64,000 nucleotides of DNA from an uncultured Clostridia bacterium (GTDB lineage Bacteria > Bacillota > Clostridia > Lachnospirales > Lachnospiraceae). The position numbers were made by a program, and so were the translations under genes. A model generated the notes under the pieces. The model searched no databases. It was given only the letters and a program-made list of their open reading frames with translations, and was not told the DNA's origin. Location: positions 1 through 64,000 of the forward strand of contig CAMWKO010000007.1 of the NCBI GenBank assembly GCA_947174885.1. The letters are read 5' to 3'. Below, in pieces: positions 5,032-48,600 of the stretch (positions within the stretch are counted from its first letter, which is position 1; the number at the start of each line of letters is the position of its first letter).

Positions 5032-5650
5032 GATTTGCGGTATTACAAAAAAATATGAAATAGATAAGCTTATAAGTGAAACCGTGGATTATGCAGGCTT
5101 TGTGGTAAATTATCCTAAGAGTAAGAGAAATAATACAATATCTGCGGCAAAAGAACTGTTAAATTATGTTAAGGAATTAAACGAAGCTCAGGACGGTTAC
5201 AGTCTGAAAACAGTAGCAGTTACGGTGTCACCGACGCTTGATGAGATAAAAGAAATTGAAGCCGCAGGCTTTGATATTATTCAGATTCATGGTAATATGG
5301 ATGAGATGCTTTTACATCAAATCAATATTCCTGTTTTCAGAGCCTTTAATGTTGATGATAAATCAGATATATCATATATAAATGACAGTAAAATAGAGGC
5401 AATACTGTTAGATGCAAAAATACCCGGACAGGGAGAAACCTTCGATTGGGAAAAGTATACAGGCTTTGAGGCTAAAGACAAAAAATTTATTTTGGCAGGT
5501 GGGTTAAATGCTTCAAATGTAAAAGCCGGAATTGAAAAAATGAATCCTGATGTAGTGGATTGCAGTAGCGGAGTAGAATATGAGGATAAGAGTATTCCAG
5601 GTAAAGACGTTAATAAAATAGAACAATTTGTAAAAGAAGTAAGGAGATAG
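5021..5650 (+). CDS. trpF: Phosphoribosylanthranilate isomerase
   Basis: '[12 protein letters not shown]', '[14 protein letters not shown]', '[12 protein letters not shown]', '[17 protein letters not shown]'. Overlaps trpC end. Confidence 0.93.
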
Positions 5651-5652
5651 TC

Positions 5653-6834
5653 ATGGAAAAGTATTATGGACAGTTTGGCGGACAATTTGTATCCGAATCG
5701 CTGATGAATACTCTGGGCGAGTTGGAAAAGGCTTACAAGGAAGCTATTGAGGATGAAAGCTTCTGGAAGGATTATGATTACTACATGAAAGAATATGTGG
5801 GCAGAGAAAACCCATTATATTTTGCCAAAAGGCTTACCGAAAAATACGGTCCTAAAATCTATTTAAAGAGAGAGGATTTGAATCATACAGGTGCGCATAA
5901 AATTAACAATGTTATCGGTCAGATTTTACTGGCAAAAAGAATGGGAAAGACAAAGGTTATAGCAGAAACAGGAGCAGGACAGCATGGTGTGGCAACGGCT
6001 ACGGGAGCAGCTCTTTTTGGTATGGAATGTACGGTATATATGGGAGAGGAGGATATAAAAAGACAGTCGCTCAATGTATTCAGAATGGAGATGCTTGGAG
6101 CAAAGGTAGTGAGTGTAACTACAGGCAGCAGAACCTTAAAGGATGCTACAAACGAAGCAATCAGAACCTGGGCTAAAGAAGCAGAGGATACCTTTTATAT
6201 CATCGGTTCGGCAGTAGGCCCTCATCCATATCCTGCCATGGTTAAAAAATTTCAATCGATTATCAGTAAAGAAGCAAGAAAACAGATATTGGAGAAAGAG
6301 GGAAGGCTTCCTGATGCAGTAGTTGCCTGCTGTGGCGGCGGCTCAAATTCCATTGGTATGTTTGCAGAATTTTTAAATGATTTGGATGTAAAGCTTGTAG
6401 GCGTGGAAGCGGCAGGACTGGGAATTGAAACAGGAAAGCATGCGTCTGCCATGGCAGAGGGAAAACCGGGTGTACTTCATGGTATGTGTTCATATCTTCT
6501 GCAGGATGATGACGGAAATGTTAAAATTGCACACTCAATTTCGGCGGGACTTGACTATCCGGGTGTAGGCCCTGAACATTCTTATCTTAAGGATACAGGC
6601 AGGGTTGAATATGTTTCCATTACCGATAAAGAATGTATGGATGCACTTTTGGAATTGTGTAAGCTTGAGGGTATTATACCTGCGATTGAAAGTGCCCATG
6701 CATTGGCACATGTGTTTAAAATGGCAAAAACAATGTCAAAGAATGATATTATAGTAATGTGTCTTTCAGGACGGGGAGATAAGGATGTTCACACGGTTGC
6801 TGCTTATCTTAACGGTGAGGATATGAACAGATAA
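5653..6834 (+). CDS. trpB: Tryptophan synthase beta chain
   Basis: '[21 protein letters not shown]', '[20 protein letters not shown]', '[12 protein letters not shown]', '[12 protein letters not shown]'. Confidence 0.97.
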
Positions 6835-40897: not shown

Positions 40898-41242
40898 ATG
40901 AAAAAAGTAAAAATTACAGTTTTGAAAACAACTTTTGATAAGGAACTGGCAGAAGAGTATGGGGCAGAAGGTCTGACTGCCTGCCCAATGATGAAGGAAG
41001 GCCAGGTGTTTTATGCTGATTATGCGAAACCGGAAGGCTTTTGTGACGAAGCATGGAAGGCTATTTATCAATATGTGTTTGCATTAGCTCATGGAGCTGG
41101 AAATGATGTATTTTATTATGGGGATTGGATTCGTAAGCCGGGAGTTGCAATTTGTAGTTGTAACGATGGTTTAAGGCCTGTTATTTTTAAACTGGAGACA
41201 ACAGAAGAAATTTCTGAAATTGACTATACTCCTGTCAGGTAA
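40898..41242 (+). CDS. TIGR04076 family protein
   Basis: 'KKVKITVLKTTFDKELAEEY...CPMMKEGQVFYADYAKPEGFCDEAWKAIYQYVFALAHG' with 'RKPGVAICSCNDGLRPVIFKLE'. Confidence 0.75.
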   Translation: MKKVKITVLKTTFDKELAEEYGAEGLTACPMMKEGQVFYADYAKPEGFCDEAWKAIYQYVFALAHGAGNDVFYYGDWIRKPGVAICSCNDGLRPVIFKLETTEEISEIDYTPVR

Positions 41243-41410
41243 ATTACAGTTAATTAGAATGATTGACTAAAATCTGTAATAATCTCGTGGGTGCTTCTGT
41301 CATTCCAAAAGTGTTGATGTTAGGTCGTTTCCCGTAAATGTAAAAACGATAGCACCCAATCAGAATTTGTATCAATTTGGACATGCAATATGGTGGTATG
41401 ATATGCCACA

Positions 41411-41500
41411 GTGATTGAAAACGGTTTTACAGTAAATGAACGTGATGTTGCCAATGCAGGTAATGATATTTCAAACTGGCTAAAAGATTTAGGATTCTAA
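41411..41500 (+). pseudogene. Flavodoxin C-terminal remnant
   Basis: Frame reads VIENGFTVNERDVANAGNDISNWLKDLGF*, the typical flavodoxin C-terminal pattern; no upstream domain. Confidence 0.55.
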
Positions 41501-41588
41501 AATTATAAGAATTATCTTTTAGGCTTTGGGATTAAAATTCACAAAGCTTAGTATTTTCTTTCAGAGTGAAAGGAGCATAGAGGTCTGC

Positions 41589-41786
41589 ATGAAAAAGAAG
41601 ATAGTCATAAGAATGATTGTTGATGTTGCAATGACAGTTATACTGATTTTTTTAATGACATATGAACTGATTGGGCAGGCAACACATGAATGGATTGGAA
41701 TTGCCATGTTTGCATTTTTTGATTTTAGTGAACCGGTAATAAAATTTCTGGCGGATTATATAGCAATTATGGGATTGCTTTATTAA
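41589..41786 (+). pseudogene. DUF4405 protein with large internal deletion
   Basis: 'MKKKIVIRMIVDVAMTVILIFLMTYELIGQATHEWIGIAMFAFF' (DUF4405 N-term) joined to 'EPVIKFLADYIAIMGLLY'; only 65 aa. Confidence 0.6.
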
Positions 41787-41946
41787 TAAAAAATCTGAAA
41801 GTTATCCTGTGATTCATAATAAAAAATCTATAATATATTTAATATAATATTTTTTTCTTGCAAATTTTGCCATTTTTTGATATTATTTACTACAGTATAA
41901 ACATACAATAGAGGAAATATTTATAGTTTATAAATTTTAAGAAAAT

Positions 41947-42025
41947 AGTTATACTTTTTACTAAAGAAACAAGCATATATAAGAAAAGCAATGCTTGAAT
42001 GGTTGGTAAAAGTATAACTTTTTTT
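41947..42025 (+). ncRNA. Candidate structured small RNA or terminator hairpin
   Basis: AGTTATACTTTTTAC ... AGCAT..ATGCT ... GGTAAAAGTATAACTTTTTTT, long stem with inner hairpin and U-tract, far from any CDS. Confidence 0.4.
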
Positions 42026-42467
42026 GCTGTTAGGATTTTTTATTAACAGTTTTATGTGGTATTCGGTATTAATTTTATTTACTTTATAAAAATAAATTTA
42101 ATGCAAAACAATGGGAAAGGAGAGTGACTGCTTAGAAAATGGAAAAATTACTGTAACAATATTTTAGAGAAATTTTTACAAAAATAATGTACAAATGCAG
42201 GCAATTAAATATTAATAAAGTATTTTTTGTTTGTAAGATGAAAAATATAAAAATTGCTAATTTAAACTTAGATTTAGTGATTTAACATATTATCCTGTAA
42301 TATGAATTAAATCAGAACAGGAGGGAAAATAAAAAGAAATTTAGTAAAAATATTTAAAGGATAGTCAGAAAATGTGACAAAAAAGATTAAAATTTTATGT
42401 CAGAAATATGTATTGATTAATATTGCAAAAAGACAAATTATTATTAAGAAAGGAACAGGTAATAAAT

Positions 42468-45089
42468 ATGTATAATAAGATTTTAAAAATAAGAAACATT
42501 ATTACATATATTGTTGTAATGGCTATTATGTTTACCTATGTGAATATTAATGGTTTAATAGCAAATGCAAAAACTACAGAGAATATGATTACATTGTTTT
42601 TTGTAGATAATACAAATGAAAAATGGTTGCAAAACGATAATGCGGTTTTGGAGTTGGTAGATAATTCAAATGGTCATGTACATTATGATATGATTAAACA
42701 GGATGATTGTATATGGAAGGCAGAGGTTCCTGAGAATGCTTATAATATTACATTCAACAGATATGATTCTGAAAAAACAACTCAATGGAATTCTTGGAGT
42801 GCCGGTGGACGTGAGGACAATAATGCATATTATGTCGACGGAAGTGAGTATGGTCACTGGGAGACTATTGAATATGTAAAACAAGAAAATTATTTCCATG
42901 CAGGAGATGTTATATATCTTGATGTATCAGAATTTGAAGAATGGCAAAGCGATGAAGCTTTAATGTATGTTAATTTCAGTGCTGCTTCAAAAGAGGAAAC
43001 CGGTGGATATGACATTAGTATTACAAGTGCAGATAAGCTATTATATAATCCTGAAAATATGGAAGATATGGTTGGGGAAAATGTATACAGATATGTGATA
43101 AATGAAAGTGATGAGGGAGCGACAGAATTAAGATTCTGGAGAGGAAATTCAGATTTTCTATGGAATTATTCAATTCTTTTTACATATGATGATTTTGTAC
43201 AGTCGGGAAATTGCGTAAAAATAACAGATTGGGATAATGACGGATATATAATAAATAAATATTACCAGGATAAATATCTGTTTTCAGATAAAAGTGAAAT
43301 ATTTATCGGTGAAGACAGTGAAGTACTTTATTTCTATATCAGCGGTATAGAAAATGAGGAAAATGAGATTAAATTGTATGAAGATGGTGTTCAAGTAGGT
43401 ATCTTCTATGATGATGGCAATTACTCAATTCATGGAGATGATATGGAAGGAGATGGTATATATTCTTCAAAATACATTTTAAATAAAGATACATATATTA
43501 ATGAAGAATATAACTATTATGCTGAATTTAGTGACGGCACCAGAACAAATAATGTAGAGATAAGAATTATAGTTCCTTTTACTGAAAAGGAATTAGATGA
43601 TATGGAATATGTCGATAATAAAATCTCAGAGATATTGTTTGAAAATGAAACTACTGCTTCATTGCTTGAAGAGGTATTAGAATCCTTGTTAAATGAGGGA
43701 TACATAAAGGAATTTGAATATGATAATATAAACAGGGTATACAATTGTAAATATTCCAATGGTGTTATGTTTGCTATTATTATTGATGATTTTTTGGAAA
43801 CTAATACATATAATAATGAAAATATGAATATATTATATGAAGCAGAAGCTTATAAAGACTATAGTGGATATAGTGCCGTTATATTAAATGCATTTGAGGA
43901 TACCCCATATAGAACAGAGTTTTATGAAGATTTTGTTGACGAATGGAAAAATAGCGGAATGGATGTTGATTATGATGATTTTGTAACAATATATGATTTG
44001 AAAACAAAGCTATATAACAGAGATTTGATAGCACTAAGTGGACATGGAACCATAGTAGCTTCACATCCGGTATTTTGTCTGCAAGATGAAAGTGCTACAA
44101 AAGATAATAATAAAATATATGCTAATGATATCCAAGCAGGAAGAATAATTCCTGTAACTTATTCAAACGGGATTAAATCATATGTAATAACAGGTAAGTT
44201 TTTCTCATATTATTATGGAGACAGTGGATTGAGTGAAAGCTTTGTCTTTGCAGAATCATGTATGTTTATGGGAAATAGTGAAAATGGAATAAATACAGAA
44301 TTTGCGGATGCATTTTTGGATTGTTCAGCGGAAGCGGTAATAGGATTTGTAAATTCTGTTCTGGCGGGTTATTCAAGAAATCTTATGTTATCATACTTTG
44401 AGAGTATATTATCAGGTAATACAGTTGAAGATGCATTTTATTATGCCAGAGAAGCATATGGATATGACGATGGAAATACAGCATATCCGATTTTAAGCGG
44501 AAATAGAGAGGCAACAATTGACAGAGGATTAAGAAATGGTGATTTTGAGGCATCAGGTCAGAAAAATATGTTTCCTCCGCTATATTGGAAATGTGAAGGA
44601 GATGTCAGAGTACAAGATAAGCTGGGCGATATTAAAGCATATGGAAACTATATGGCATTTTTATCTACCGGAATAGGTTCTAAATCAGGTGTAAGTTTAT
44701 CAGGTACACAGGGAAGTACAATGAGCCAGATGGTAAAAAATATTGATAATACCAAATTGGAGTTTACATATAATGTTGTTTCAGAAGAGCCTATGGAATA
44801 TGTTGGAAGTCAATTTGATGATAAATTTGAAATTCAAATATTAGATAGTCATGATAATATACTTTATAGTGAAGTAGTAGAATCTGTAAATACATCTATC
44901 TGGTATCCAATATCAGGTATAGATTTTGATGGTGGTGATCATACAACGTATCATACCCAGTGGAAGACAAAAAGTATTGATATTTCAGAATATCAGAATG
45001 AACTTATTAAGATAAAATTTATGGTATACGATGTAGGAGATTCAATATATGATACGGCTGTTATAATTGATAATATAAATATATCGTGA
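42468..45089 (+). CDS. Secreted clan CD (caspase/gingipain/clostripain-like) cysteine protease with N-terminal carbohydrate-binding-like and C-terminal beta domains
   Basis: Signal-like N-terminus; His motif 'DLIALSGHGTIV' (44037-44048) and Cys motif 'SFVFAESCMFMG' (Cys codon 44259-44261), followed by 'AEAVIGFVNSVLAGYSRNLMLSYFESILSGNTVEDAFYYAREAYG'. Confidence 0.72.
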   Translation: MYNKILKIRNIITYIVVMAIMFTYVNINGLIANAKTTENMITLFFVDNTNEKWLQNDNAVLELVDNSNGHVHYDMIKQDDCIWKAEVPENAYNITFNRYDSEKTTQWNSWSAGGREDNNAYYVDGSEYGHWETIEYVKQENYFHAGDVIYLDVSEFEEWQSDEALMYVNFSAASKEETGGYDISITSADKLLYNPENMEDMVGENVYRYVINESDEGATELRFWRGNSDFLWNYSILFTYDDFVQSGNCVKITDWDNDGYIINKYYQDKYLFSDKSEIFIGEDSEVLYFYISGIENEENEIKLYEDGVQVGIFYDDGNYSIHGDDMEGDGIYSSKYILNKDTYINEEYNYYAEFSDGTRTNNVEIRIIVPFTEKELDDMEYVDNKISEILFENETTASLLEEVLESLLNEGYIKEFEYDNINRVYNCKYSNGVMFAIIIDDFLETNTYNNENMNILYEAEAYKDYSGYSAVILNAFEDTPYRTEFYEDFVDEWKNSGMDVDYDDFVTIYDLKTKLYNRDLIALSGHGTIVASHPVFCLQDESATKDNNKIYANDIQAGRIIPVTYSNGIKSYVITGKFFSYYYGDSGLSESFVFAESCMFMGNSENGINTEFADAFLDCSAEAVIGFVNSVLAGYSRNLMLSYFESILSGNTVEDAFYYAREAYGYDDGNTAYPILSGNREATIDRGLRNGDFEASGQKNMFPPLYWKCEGDVRVQDKLGDIKAYGNYMAFLSTGIGSKSGVSLSGTQGSTMSQMVKNIDNTKLEFTYNVVSEEPMEYVGSQFDDKFEIQILDSHDNILYSEVVESVNTSIWYPISGIDFDGGDHTTYHTQWKTKSIDISEYQNELIKIKFMVYDVGDSIYDTAVIIDNINIS

Positions 45090-45100
45090 GGTAGATAAGT

Positions 45101-45565
45101 TTGAAAAAAAAGTCATATGCAATAAGTATATTAAGTATATTAATTGTGGTAATATCTTTTATAATATACTTAGCAATATTTCAACAGTCAAAGAATGATG
45201 TATCATCTGATAAAGAGTCAGATACTACTATGATAAGCCAGGATAATGGAAATAAAAATGAATATGATAATGATAAGGATAAGGATAATAAAAATGATAA
45301 TGATAACGGAGATGATAAAGATTTAATGAGTGTAGATGATATGGTTTCGGAATTTACTAAATCAAATCAGTTCCAACAGGGAAATACAGAAGAAAGGGTA
45401 AAATTAATGGAGACACTAATGGATGAACTTGTTGGAGAAGGAAAGATTAAGGATTATAAAGTAGATTTATCAGCAGGGTCATCGAATCCTAATATATTAT
45501 ATTATTATAATGATGGAGGATTTGGTATGGTAATGATAAATGAATTCCGAGAAGACCAAAATTAG
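45101..45565 (+). CDS. Small secreted or membrane-tethered partner protein with propeptide-like C-terminal domain
   Basis: Start TTG/ATG near 45101; N-term TM, Asp/Asn/Lys-rich linker, C-term 'VKLMETLMDELVGEGKIKDYKVD..NPNILYYYNDGGFGMVMINEFRE' resembling protease residues before the catalytic domain. Confidence 0.7.
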   Translation: MKKKSYAISILSILIVVISFIIYLAIFQQSKNDVSSDKESDTTMISQDNGNKNEYDNDKDKDNKNDNDNGDDKDLMSVDDMVSEFTKSNQFQQGNTEERVKLMETLMDELVGEGKIKDYKVDLSAGSSNPNILYYYNDGGFGMVMINEFREDQN

Positions 45566-45609
45566 AAGAGCTATATTATATAGAATATAAAATCCTATAT
45601 AATAAATCA

Positions 45610-45636
45610 GCAAGCCCCTTTCGGGGCTTGCTTTAT
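45610..45636. terminator. Bidirectional terminator between partner gene and carB
   Basis: GCAAGCCCC-tttc-GGGGCTTGC-TTTAT. Confidence 0.88.
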
Positions 45637-45689
45637 AATTAAAATAAAATTCTGAAATTATTTAACTAATTAATTTAATATTCAAACCT

Positions 45690-48600
45690 CTATTTTTCTT
45701 TTATTTCACTGTGAAGCTGTTGGATGGACTTTACATCTCCGTCGCCATGCTTTTTAACATAAAGTATACCCTTTGCGGTAGCTCTTGCAGCAGCTATTGT
45801 AGTCATGTAAGGGATTCTTCCTTTTATAGCAGCCTTACGAAGATAGCTGTCATCATGTACACTGTCTTTTCCTATAGGAGTATTGATAATTAAGTCAATA
45901 TCTCCGTTTGTGATTAAATCCAATACATTTGGACGGCCTTCATACAGCTTGTTTACAATCTCTGCATTTATACCTGCATTTTTAATCAGCTCATATGTTT
46001 TACCTGTTGCAATAATCTTAAAGCCGGCTTCATCAAATAGTTTTGCTATTTCTGCAACCTCAGGTTTATCCTTTTGATTTACGGATATAAGGACTGTACC
46101 GCTAAGAGGAAGCTTTGTCTGTGTTGCCTCCTGAGCCTTGAAGAAGGCTTCTCCATAATATGGTGATAATCCAAGTACCTCACCGGTAGATCTCATTTCA
46201 GGTCCAAGTACAGGGTCTACTTCAGGGAACATATTAAATGGGAATACTGCCTCCTTAACGCCATAGTATGGAATATCCTGCTCCTTAAGTGACGGTACGG
46301 GAGATGGTCTGTTTGTAATCTCTGAGGTAATAATATCCGTAGCAAGCGGTACCATGCGGATGTTACATACCTTTGAAACAAGAGGAACAGTACGGGATGC
46401 ACGTGGATTTGCCTCAAGCACATATACCTTGCCGTTTTCAATGGCATACTGCATATTCATTAAGCCTTTGACGTGCATTTCCTCGGCAATTTTCTTTGTA
46501 TACTCCTTTATGGTTGCAACGTTTTCTTCCGTAATGTGAACAGAAGGAATGATACAGGCTGAATCACCTGAATGAACACCTGCAAGCTCAATATGCTCCA
46601 TAACTGCCGGTACAAAAGCATGAACGCCGTCGCTTATGGCATCGGCTTCACATTCCAGCGCATGATTAAGGAAACGGTCAATGAGTATAGGTCTGTCAGG
46701 AGTTACACCAACAGCAGCATTCATATAGTTTGTCATACTGCTGTCATCATATACAACCTCCATACCACGTCCGCCAAGAACGTATGAAGGACGAACCATT
46801 ACAGGATATCCTATTTTACCTGCTATACTTATGGCTTCATCGACAGTAGTAGCCATACCTGCTTCAGGCATAGGAATTCCAAGCTTGTCCATCATGGCAC
46901 GGAATAAATCCCTGTCTTCTGCAAGGTCAATAACGGCAGGAGGAGTACCGAGAATTTTAACACCGTTTTTCTCCAATTCGGAAGCAAGGTTAAGAGGAGT
47001 CTGACCTCCAAACTGGGCAATTACACCAAGAGGCTTTTCTTTATTGTAAATACTTAAAACATCCTCAAGAGTAAGAGGCTCAAAGTATAACTTGTCTGAT
47101 GTATCATAATCAGTTGAAACCGTTTCAGGATTACAGTTTACAATGATAGTTTCAAAGCCGAGCTTTTTAAGTGCTAAAGAAGCATGAACACAGCAGTAGT
47201 CAAACTCAATACCCTGACCGATTCTGTTTGGACCGCCGCCAAGAATCATAATCTTAGGCTTTTCGGTATTTACAGGATTTTTATCCGGTGCATTATAGGT
47301 AGAGTAATAGTAGGCGCTGTCAGGAGTACCGCTGACATGTACACCCTCCCAGGCTTCCTCTACATCCAGAGAAATACGTTTATTTCTGATATCCTCCTCA
47401 GGAATAGCTAAAATCTGGCTTAAATATTTGTCTGAGAAACCATTCTTCTTAGCCGAAATCAATTCTTCATCAGCAGGTAAAGCTCCCTTTGACTTAGCCA
47501 GAGCTTCTTCTTCCTCAACAAGCTCCTGCATCTGTTTTACAAAGTAATGCTTAACCTTTGTGATGTCAAAGATTTCATCTACGGTAGCACCTTTTCTAAG
47601 TGCTTCGTACATAATAAAGTGACGGTCACTTGACGGATTGGCAAGCATAATAAGTAATTCTTCTTTGGTCTTTTTATTGTAATCCTTAGCATATCCAAGG
47701 CCGTAGCGGCCTGTCTCAAGACTTCGGATAGCCTTTTGGAAAGCCTCCTTGTAGGTTTTTCCGATACTCATTACTTCACCGACTGCACGCATCTGTGTGC
47801 CGAGCTTATCCTCAACACCTTTAAATTTTTCAAATGCCCAGCGGGCAAATTTGATAACAACATAGTCACCGTCAGGAACATACTTGTCTAAGGTACCGTA
47901 TTTTCCACATTCTATATCCTTTAATGTAAGTCCTGCAGCAAGCATTGCCGAAACAAGTGCGATAGGAAAACCTGTTGCTTTTGAAGCAAGAGCAGAAGAA
48001 CGTGATGTTCTTGGATTGATTTCAATAACAACTATACGGTCGGATACCGGATCGTGGGCAAACTGAACATTTGTACCGCCAATAACCTTAACAGACTCCA
48101 CTATACGGTAAGCCTGCTCCTGAAGTTTTTTCTGAAGCTCTTCCGATATAGTGAGCATTGGAGCTGAACAGAAGGAATCACCCGTATGTGTACCAAGCGG
48201 ATCAATATTTTCAATGAAACATACAGTAATCATGTTGCCCTCTGCATCGCGAACAACTTCAAGCTCTAGCTCTTCCCAACCAAGAATAGATTCTTCAACA
48301 AGAACCTGTCCTACAAGACTGGCCTGAAGACCACGGGCACATACGGTTTTTAATTCTTCTTTATTATATACAAGACCGCCGCCGGCACCGCCCATAGTAT
48401 AAGCAGGACGAAGAACAACAGGATAGCCCAGTTTTTCAGCAATGGCAAGAGCCTCTTCAACACTGTAGGAAACCTCACTTCTTGCCATTTCAATTCCTAT
48501 GGCATCCATGGATTTTTTAAATTCTATACGGTCCTCACCACGTTCGATGGCATCTACCTGTACACCGATTACCTGAACATTATATTTGTCAAGTATTCCC

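Follow-up and report, generated by a model that had tools for sequence, protein, structure and literature searches.

The 64,000-nucleotide stretch of DNA analysed here (an uncultured Lachnospiraceae bacterium, contig CAMWKO010000007.1; hereafter, the window) carries a two-gene unit in which a predicted secreted cysteine protease of clan CD is followed by a small membrane-anchored protein homologous to the segment preceding the catalytic domain of that same protease. Similar pairs recur in other genomes, and separate copies of the domain invariably end in asparagine. We consider the small protein to be a trans-acting inhibitor or immunity-type partner of the protease, a reading to which we assign a probability of roughly 0.55.

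The protease gene (positions 42,468–45,089, + strand, ATG start) encodes 873 amino acids. A signal peptide with a hydrophobic core and a junction called by eye at ANA|K (42,468–42,569) is followed by a region common to much larger Lachnospiraceae surface proteins (42,573–43,277). Protease residues 7–348 gave matches down to E = 2.8e-94 in open reading frames (ORFs) of 1197–3163 amino acids. In related genomes, larger proteins of up to 3163 amino acids have N-terminal-type regions that are 42–52% identical to the one encoded at window positions 42,468–43,500, which suggests that the N-terminal region is a shuffled surface module. An Ig-like domain, recognized by eye (43,314–43,577), precedes the pre-catalytic domain, which was delimited by BLASTP, profiles and hhalign to residues 379–455 (43,602–43,832). 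The catalytic His526 in the SGHG motif (44,043–44,045) and Cys598 in the ESC motif (44,259–44,261) come next, and the protein terminates with a beta-sandwich of the choice-of-anchor or cleaved-adhesin type (44,535–45,086). The latter is matched by NF038133 in 6 of 9 family members (best value 7.8e-9), with the window copy being sub-threshold (1.8e-5), and in Foldseek searches the C-terminal part of the protease model resembles the cleaved-adhesin domains of gingipains. Many members of the protease family carry SLH or adhesin-like domains.

The preliminary description of this locus recognized the clan CD dyad layout, and this assignment holds: the 2 catalytic residues are 72 positions apart and are conserved in all 9 close members, and His526, the adjacent Gly527 and Cys598 are invariant across 10 divergent members of a broad alignment, which are 17–34% identical to the window copy. 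A structural model of residues 379–873, built from 2 sequences only, has a pLDDT of 49 overall and of 70–80 across much of the catalytic core. Its element order, b-a-b-a-b(H)..b(C)-a-b-a, is that of caspase-type folds, with the His-Gly…Cys dyad placed at the ends of adjacent strands. The best PDB match of this low-confidence model in Foldseek was the CHAT protease of the SAVED-CHAT filament (8tl0, E = 7.9e-6). Likewise, CHAT (PF12770) is the sole catalytic Pfam family matched by several members, although only one of the 2 proteases of genome G681 (G681a) scores above the cutoff (26.6 bits against 24), with the proteases of G449, G624 and G033 reaching 22.0, 16.8 and 14.1 bits, respectively, and the window copy being unmatched. 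Neither the window protease nor its close relatives match the gingipain C25 family of Pfam (PF01364), for which one distant relative scored 14.2 bits against a cutoff of 23. No match to SpeB (C10) or Spi was obtained in Pfam, NCBIfam or PDB.

The partner gene (45,101–45,565, + strand, TTG start) encodes 154 amino acids and, as originally noted, begins 11 bp past the protease stop codon; it is preceded by a ribosome-binding-like site, GAGGTAG. The protein consists of an N-terminal membrane anchor, an acidic Asp/Asn-rich linker, the homologue of the pro-domain and a C-terminus reading FREDQN. A bidirectional intrinsic terminator is predicted at 45,609–45,632, at the end of the two-gene unit. Given the 11-bp gap, the shared strand and the shared terminator, the 2 genes are likely to be co-transcribed. 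Elsewhere in the window, a T-box leader (1,721–2,027; Rfam RF00230, 107.8 bits) is unrelated to the protease pair. The domain is approximately 75 residues long and comprises 3 helices and 3 strands. In the partner (45,320–45,562), a model built from 3 sequences (mean pLDDT 84.5) places the helices before the strands in an ordered core, followed by a free C-terminal tail, REDQN (45,548–45,562), which is modelled with low confidence as disordered and flexible and ends in the conserved Asn. In a low-confidence model, the protease's own copy shows 2 helices followed by 2 strands. A PDB fold search with the partner domain model yielded no match (best E = 0.33), and since neither Pfam nor the solved structures offer a convincing match to the small domain, its structure would be new information. 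Sub-threshold Pfam matches of the partner (PFF1_TM, DUF6556 and others) were attributed to the transmembrane and acidic stretches and rejected. PPR proteins in PDB, which the domain profile also matched, were rejected as well: the signal comes from a brief helical segment that recurs along the target, none of its occurrences passing singly.

The 154-residue partner is a true homologue of the pre-catalytic segment of the protease. In a direct BLASTP comparison, 80 residues aligned at 29% identity (single-comparison E = 5e-6), the similarity beginning approximately 25 residues upstream of the segment first described (VDN.ISE in one copy and VDD.VSE in the other). The coordinates of that segment in the protease (43,656–43,799) were exact, and its counterpart in the small protein exists but spans 45,395–45,553 rather than 45,394–45,555, a difference of 1 to 2 bases. 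Against a leave-one-out HMM, the window partner scored 59.2 bits (E = 7e-17), while 2000 shuffled versions of its own domain reached 12.0 bits at most; against a profile of protease copies only, it scored 28.1 bits (best shuffle, 10.3), and against a profile of just 2 non-window proteases, 21.1 bits (best shuffle, 15.0). The HMM-HMM comparison, the sequence-based part of the refutation test set out in the preliminary description, was significant: profiles of 6 separate copies (leaving out the near-duplicate from G624) and of 7 protease copies aligned with hhalign at 99.2% probability (E = 2.6e-19) from an N-terminal Val through the terminal Asn. In this homology of the small protein to the pre-catalytic region of the adjacent protease, the pair agrees with pairs of the SpeB-Spi kind, and we infer that this region would be removed as a pro-region. 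Beyond the preliminary description, the analysis brought out the conserved C-terminal Asn, the tethering of most copies to the membrane and the affinity of the catalytic domain to CHAT.

The genomes searched numbered 397 for the family, 48 for one genus, 373 for the order and 300 for the phylum. In total, 9 close proteases were found, including 2 in G681 and one on scaffold MT835937.1, and in all 9 the domain is located ahead of the catalytic domain. An adjacent partner on the same strand, always just downstream of the protease, accompanies 5 of them: in the window (gap of 11 bp), G449 (locus L082; 12 bp), G624 (L095; 22 bp), G681 (L096; 62 bp) and G744 (L101; 2 bp). The pairs span several genera and 2 families. 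In G744, a single protease is followed by 2 tandem, nearly identical partner genes (L101:4934-5278 and 5329-5673), both products ending in FREDQN. The remaining 4 close proteases (G033, G071, G681b and MT835937) have no adjacent partner. A 141-residue exported ORF behind the G033 protease (L004:1013-1438) has no recognizable domain, ends in Met and was not counted; it may be unrelated or a very diverged partner. Distant proteases of G196, G259, G377, G161, G288 (twice) and G319 carry, without a partner, a helix-strand segment at the same position, whose kinship with the pro-domain is no more than suggestive (hhalign E = 1.5e-4, probability 51%). Outside the window's own, the 300 phylum genomes yielded nothing, and within the window's genus the protease is present in the window genome only, with 2 relatives matching just its N-terminal region. 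Weak matches at L055-L057 (E of 0.001–0.01 with the first domain profile) proved to be unrelated proteins. The plasmid search found nothing, no relative turned up in 3 scans of viral contigs, and the single record returned by a scan of genome contigs was that of G033, which is a Lachnospiraceae MAG. The one match in the phage search, MT835937.1 (L083), is an unannotated GenBank 'Bacteriophage sp.' scaffold on which bacterial housekeeping-type genes (tsaB/tsaE, rpiB, upp) were recognized by eye, flanking the protease gene; it is probably a bacterial contig. PADLOC gave no defence-system match.

The domain also occurs as a separate protein in 5 genomes (G369, G410, G521, G577 and G683) in which a nine-member profile detected no protease of the family at E ≤ 0.01, 4 of these genomes being 98–99% complete. 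The orphans of G521, G577 and G683 are lipoproteins composed of the Ig-like domain, as judged by eye, and the domain in question, i.e., the middle of the protease without its catalytic part. Two of the 3 lipoprotein genes (L098:8300-9106, L099:6747-7541 and L100:3069-3905) adjoin a NUDIX gene and a gene for an adenosine-deaminase-like lipoprotein. The G410 orphan (L029:5854-6310) has no signal peptide in-frame, but a different frame contains a signal-peptide-like stretch immediately upstream, so a frameshift in this gene is possible. Among the separate copies, those of the window and G744 carry a transmembrane anchor and those of G681, G449, G521, G577 and G683 a lipobox-like signal. The pairing of protease and stand-alone homologue first seen in the window recurs in 4 other genomes, but the stand-alone domain is not strictly tied to a local protease. 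Where no protease is detectable, the partner needs another target or a community-level use.

In a phylogeny of 19 domain copies, which has long branches, the partners of the window, G744 and G369 cluster together (support 98/91), as do the proteases of the window and G744 (97/91), whereas the G624 partner groups with its own protease (100/99), to which it is 69% identical. These groupings imply that the window has its pair in common with G744 and that the G624 partner arose separately, so that the separate copies would have at least 2 origins; the label 'separate' changes 5 times on the tree, with 2 of the changes forced by strong branches. By sequence, the G624 partner was recently copied from the domain of the neighbouring protease. 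A recent duplication in the window genome itself was rejected, the window partner being nearer to those of G369 and G744 than to its neighbour. Between the window and G744, the partners are 25% identical and the proteases 53%; partners thus diverge faster. The G+C content drops to 26–33% across the protease unit and the DNA preceding it (41,000–46,000), compared to approximately 40% on both sides. The low G+C content, together with the absence from the searched congeneric relatives, would fit acquisition or loss of the protease.

Asn is the last residue of all 11 separate copies, against a background of 6.6% in the 286 ORFs of the examined loci that have 200 codons or more. The probability of this by chance is approximately 1e-6 if only 5 lineages are counted as independent; because the copies share ancestry, it is sounder to say that both the residue and the position of the chain end are conserved, with the remainder of the domain diverging to 20–30% identity. 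The window and G744 partners are a case in point, with the last 6 residues, FREDQN, being identical. The terminal Asn lies 5 residues past the aromatic residue of the last strand in 9 copies, including G521 with its KEFDPYMN tail, and 10 residues past it in the other 2. The protease chains continue beyond the aligned point, reading N|S in G033, N|G in G624 and G681b, N|T in MT835937 and D|G in G681a. The G449 protease has N|G at +10, the same spacing as in its partner, and the G071 protease an Asn at +6. The window protease has no Asn at +5 and one at +10 within an Asn-rich stretch, the G744 protease has none, and the distant proteases (G259, G377 and others) have no Asn motif altogether. The separate proteins thus look like a released pro-domain. 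As the pattern was spotted with the sequences in hand, it is a hypothesis for testing on new copies, and since both the window and G744 proteases have no Asn at +5, its cleavage-site part is weakest for the window pair.

In clan CD, specificity is set by the P1 residue, and legumain cuts after Asn or Asp (PMC12445089; PMC9788469; PMC4357240). Legumain also cleaves itself after Asn323 and Asp303/309 (PMC9788469), and the pro-domain of gingipain RgpB inhibits by injecting a P1 residue into the S1 pocket (PMC4357240). Based on this biology, we propose that the large protein is an exported CHAT-like cysteine protease with an N-terminal pro-domain, and that the zymogen would be cut at an Asn (or Asp) in the tail of the pro-domain, releasing the latter. 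The partner, a detached copy of the pro-domain that faces outward from its membrane anchor, would end exactly at the cleavage Asn and mimic the released piece. With its free C-terminal Asn in the S1 pocket, it would bind the mature protease in trans and inhibit it in a product-like manner, which would protect the surface of the producing cell and amount to an immunity-like role. The predicted cleavage specificity is drawn solely from the conserved Asn/Asp in the pro-domain tail. The analysis shows the homology, the invariant dyad, the recurrence of the pairs, the signals for export or tethering and the terminal Asn; from these and from clan CD biology we infer proteolytic activity, the pro-domain function, cleavage after Asn, specificity, binding and inhibition. 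In its full version, namely, an exported CHAT-like family with asparaginyl, legumain-like specificity, inhibited by a membrane-tethered detached pro-domain that acts as a product mimic and has arisen repeatedly, with orphans possibly protecting non-producers, the proposal is tentative, and we put it at nearer one chance in three than one in two.

The preliminary description had left open whether the partner is an inhibitor, a chaperone or an immunity-like protein. Recurrence of the pair in 4 other genomes makes the inhibitor or immunity type the best reading. Of the alternatives, the one that survives best, though we regard it as unlikely, is that the domain is a binding or docking module retained in the mature protein, with the separate copies docking the protease or competing for a ligand at the surface. 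The SLH and adhesin-like domains of many family members, the orphan lipoproteins without a protease and the possibly related domain that distant members keep without the Asn motif (at the 51% probability given above) are in line with this possibility. However, the separate copies stop exactly at the Asn, after a tail that is both flexible and conserved, which a core binding domain does not need. More doubtful is a role as a folding chaperone that would help the secreted protease to fold at the membrane surface. Pro-domains of secreted proteases often both chaperone and inhibit, the partner is tethered outside the membrane, where the nascent protease emerges, and its gene is consistently placed just behind that of the protease. 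Nevertheless, every protease has the domain in cis, so a chaperone in trans would be redundant; orphan copies exist without a protease, and the conserved C-terminal Asn is left unexplained. The orphans weaken a strictly one-to-one inhibitor model and leave room for another target or for protection against the proteases of neighbours. On the latter account, to which we give little credence in its general form, orphan and paired copies alike would be broad 'immunity' proteins against neighbours' secreted proteases, with self-protection as a special case. Retention of the domain and its terminal Asn in 5 genomes with no detectable protease and the faster divergence of the partners (25% between the window and G744, compared to 53% for their proteases) would be expected, but nothing indicates that these proteases attack bacteria, and the orphans are possibly relics, as the potentially frameshifted G410 copy illustrates. 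Finally, a tandem duplication in decay, its small protein without function, is a very improbable account of the pair, although the recent origin of the G624 partner might suggest it, given the recurrence in several genera and 2 families, the preserved export signals, the FREDQN ends identical at 25% overall identity and the terminal Asn in 11 of 11 copies.

The inhibitor reading has precedents among known protease-inhibitor gene pairs. SpeB, the secreted cysteine protease of Streptococcus pyogenes, belongs to family C10 of clan CA. Spi, 'a propeptide analogue', is encoded beside speB, co-transcribed with it and inhibits SpeB (PMC2873492). The preliminary description named no described two-gene system of exactly this form; one of the general form is known, in an unrelated protease family (PMC2873492). 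The window pair shares with SpeB-Spi the adjacency of a secreted cysteine protease and a small propeptide-analogue gene but differs in the protease clan, in the membrane tethering and export of the partner, in the existence of orphans and in the conserved terminal Asn. Staphopain-staphostatin and Bfp-Bfi are similarly gene neighbours, but their proteases belong to clan CA, and staphostatins are lipocalin-like rather than homologues of a pro-domain. In both staphopain-staphostatin and the Bacteroides pair Bfp-Bfi, the protease gene adjoins a small inhibitor gene, with Bfi being predicted in the periplasm or membranes (PMC2873492). Gingipains (C25, clan CD) resemble the window protease in having an N-terminal pro-domain with a P1-like residue in S1 and a similar C-terminal adhesin-type domain, but are Arg/Lys-specific, and the window subfamily does not match Pfam C25. 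We know of no separate gene for a gingipain pro-domain. Legumain (C13, clan CD), with its Asn/Asp autoprocessing, is the model for the proposed specificity; its pro-domain, by contrast, is C-terminal, and no sequence match to it was found. CHAT proteases (PF12770; SAVED-CHAT, 8tl0) have the closest catalytic fold by Foldseek, whereas the window family is exported and multi-domain, with a pro-domain and a partner. To our knowledge, the CHAT proteases described so far are intracellular effectors. A search of open-access papers found no report of a detached pro-domain partner for a protease of clan CD or of the CHAT type; with most subscription papers outside its scope, this is weak evidence of absence.

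The pair would be a clan CD counterpart of SpeB-Spi, from a family of bacteria that is common in the guts of animals, and the proposal makes a prediction that can be read from sequence alone, namely, that every detached copy ends in Asn. If the proposal is true, these bacteria would possess a family of Asn-specific secreted proteases, the partner would explain how the producer survives its own enzyme, and protease pro-domains would repeatedly escape to become separate inhibitors.
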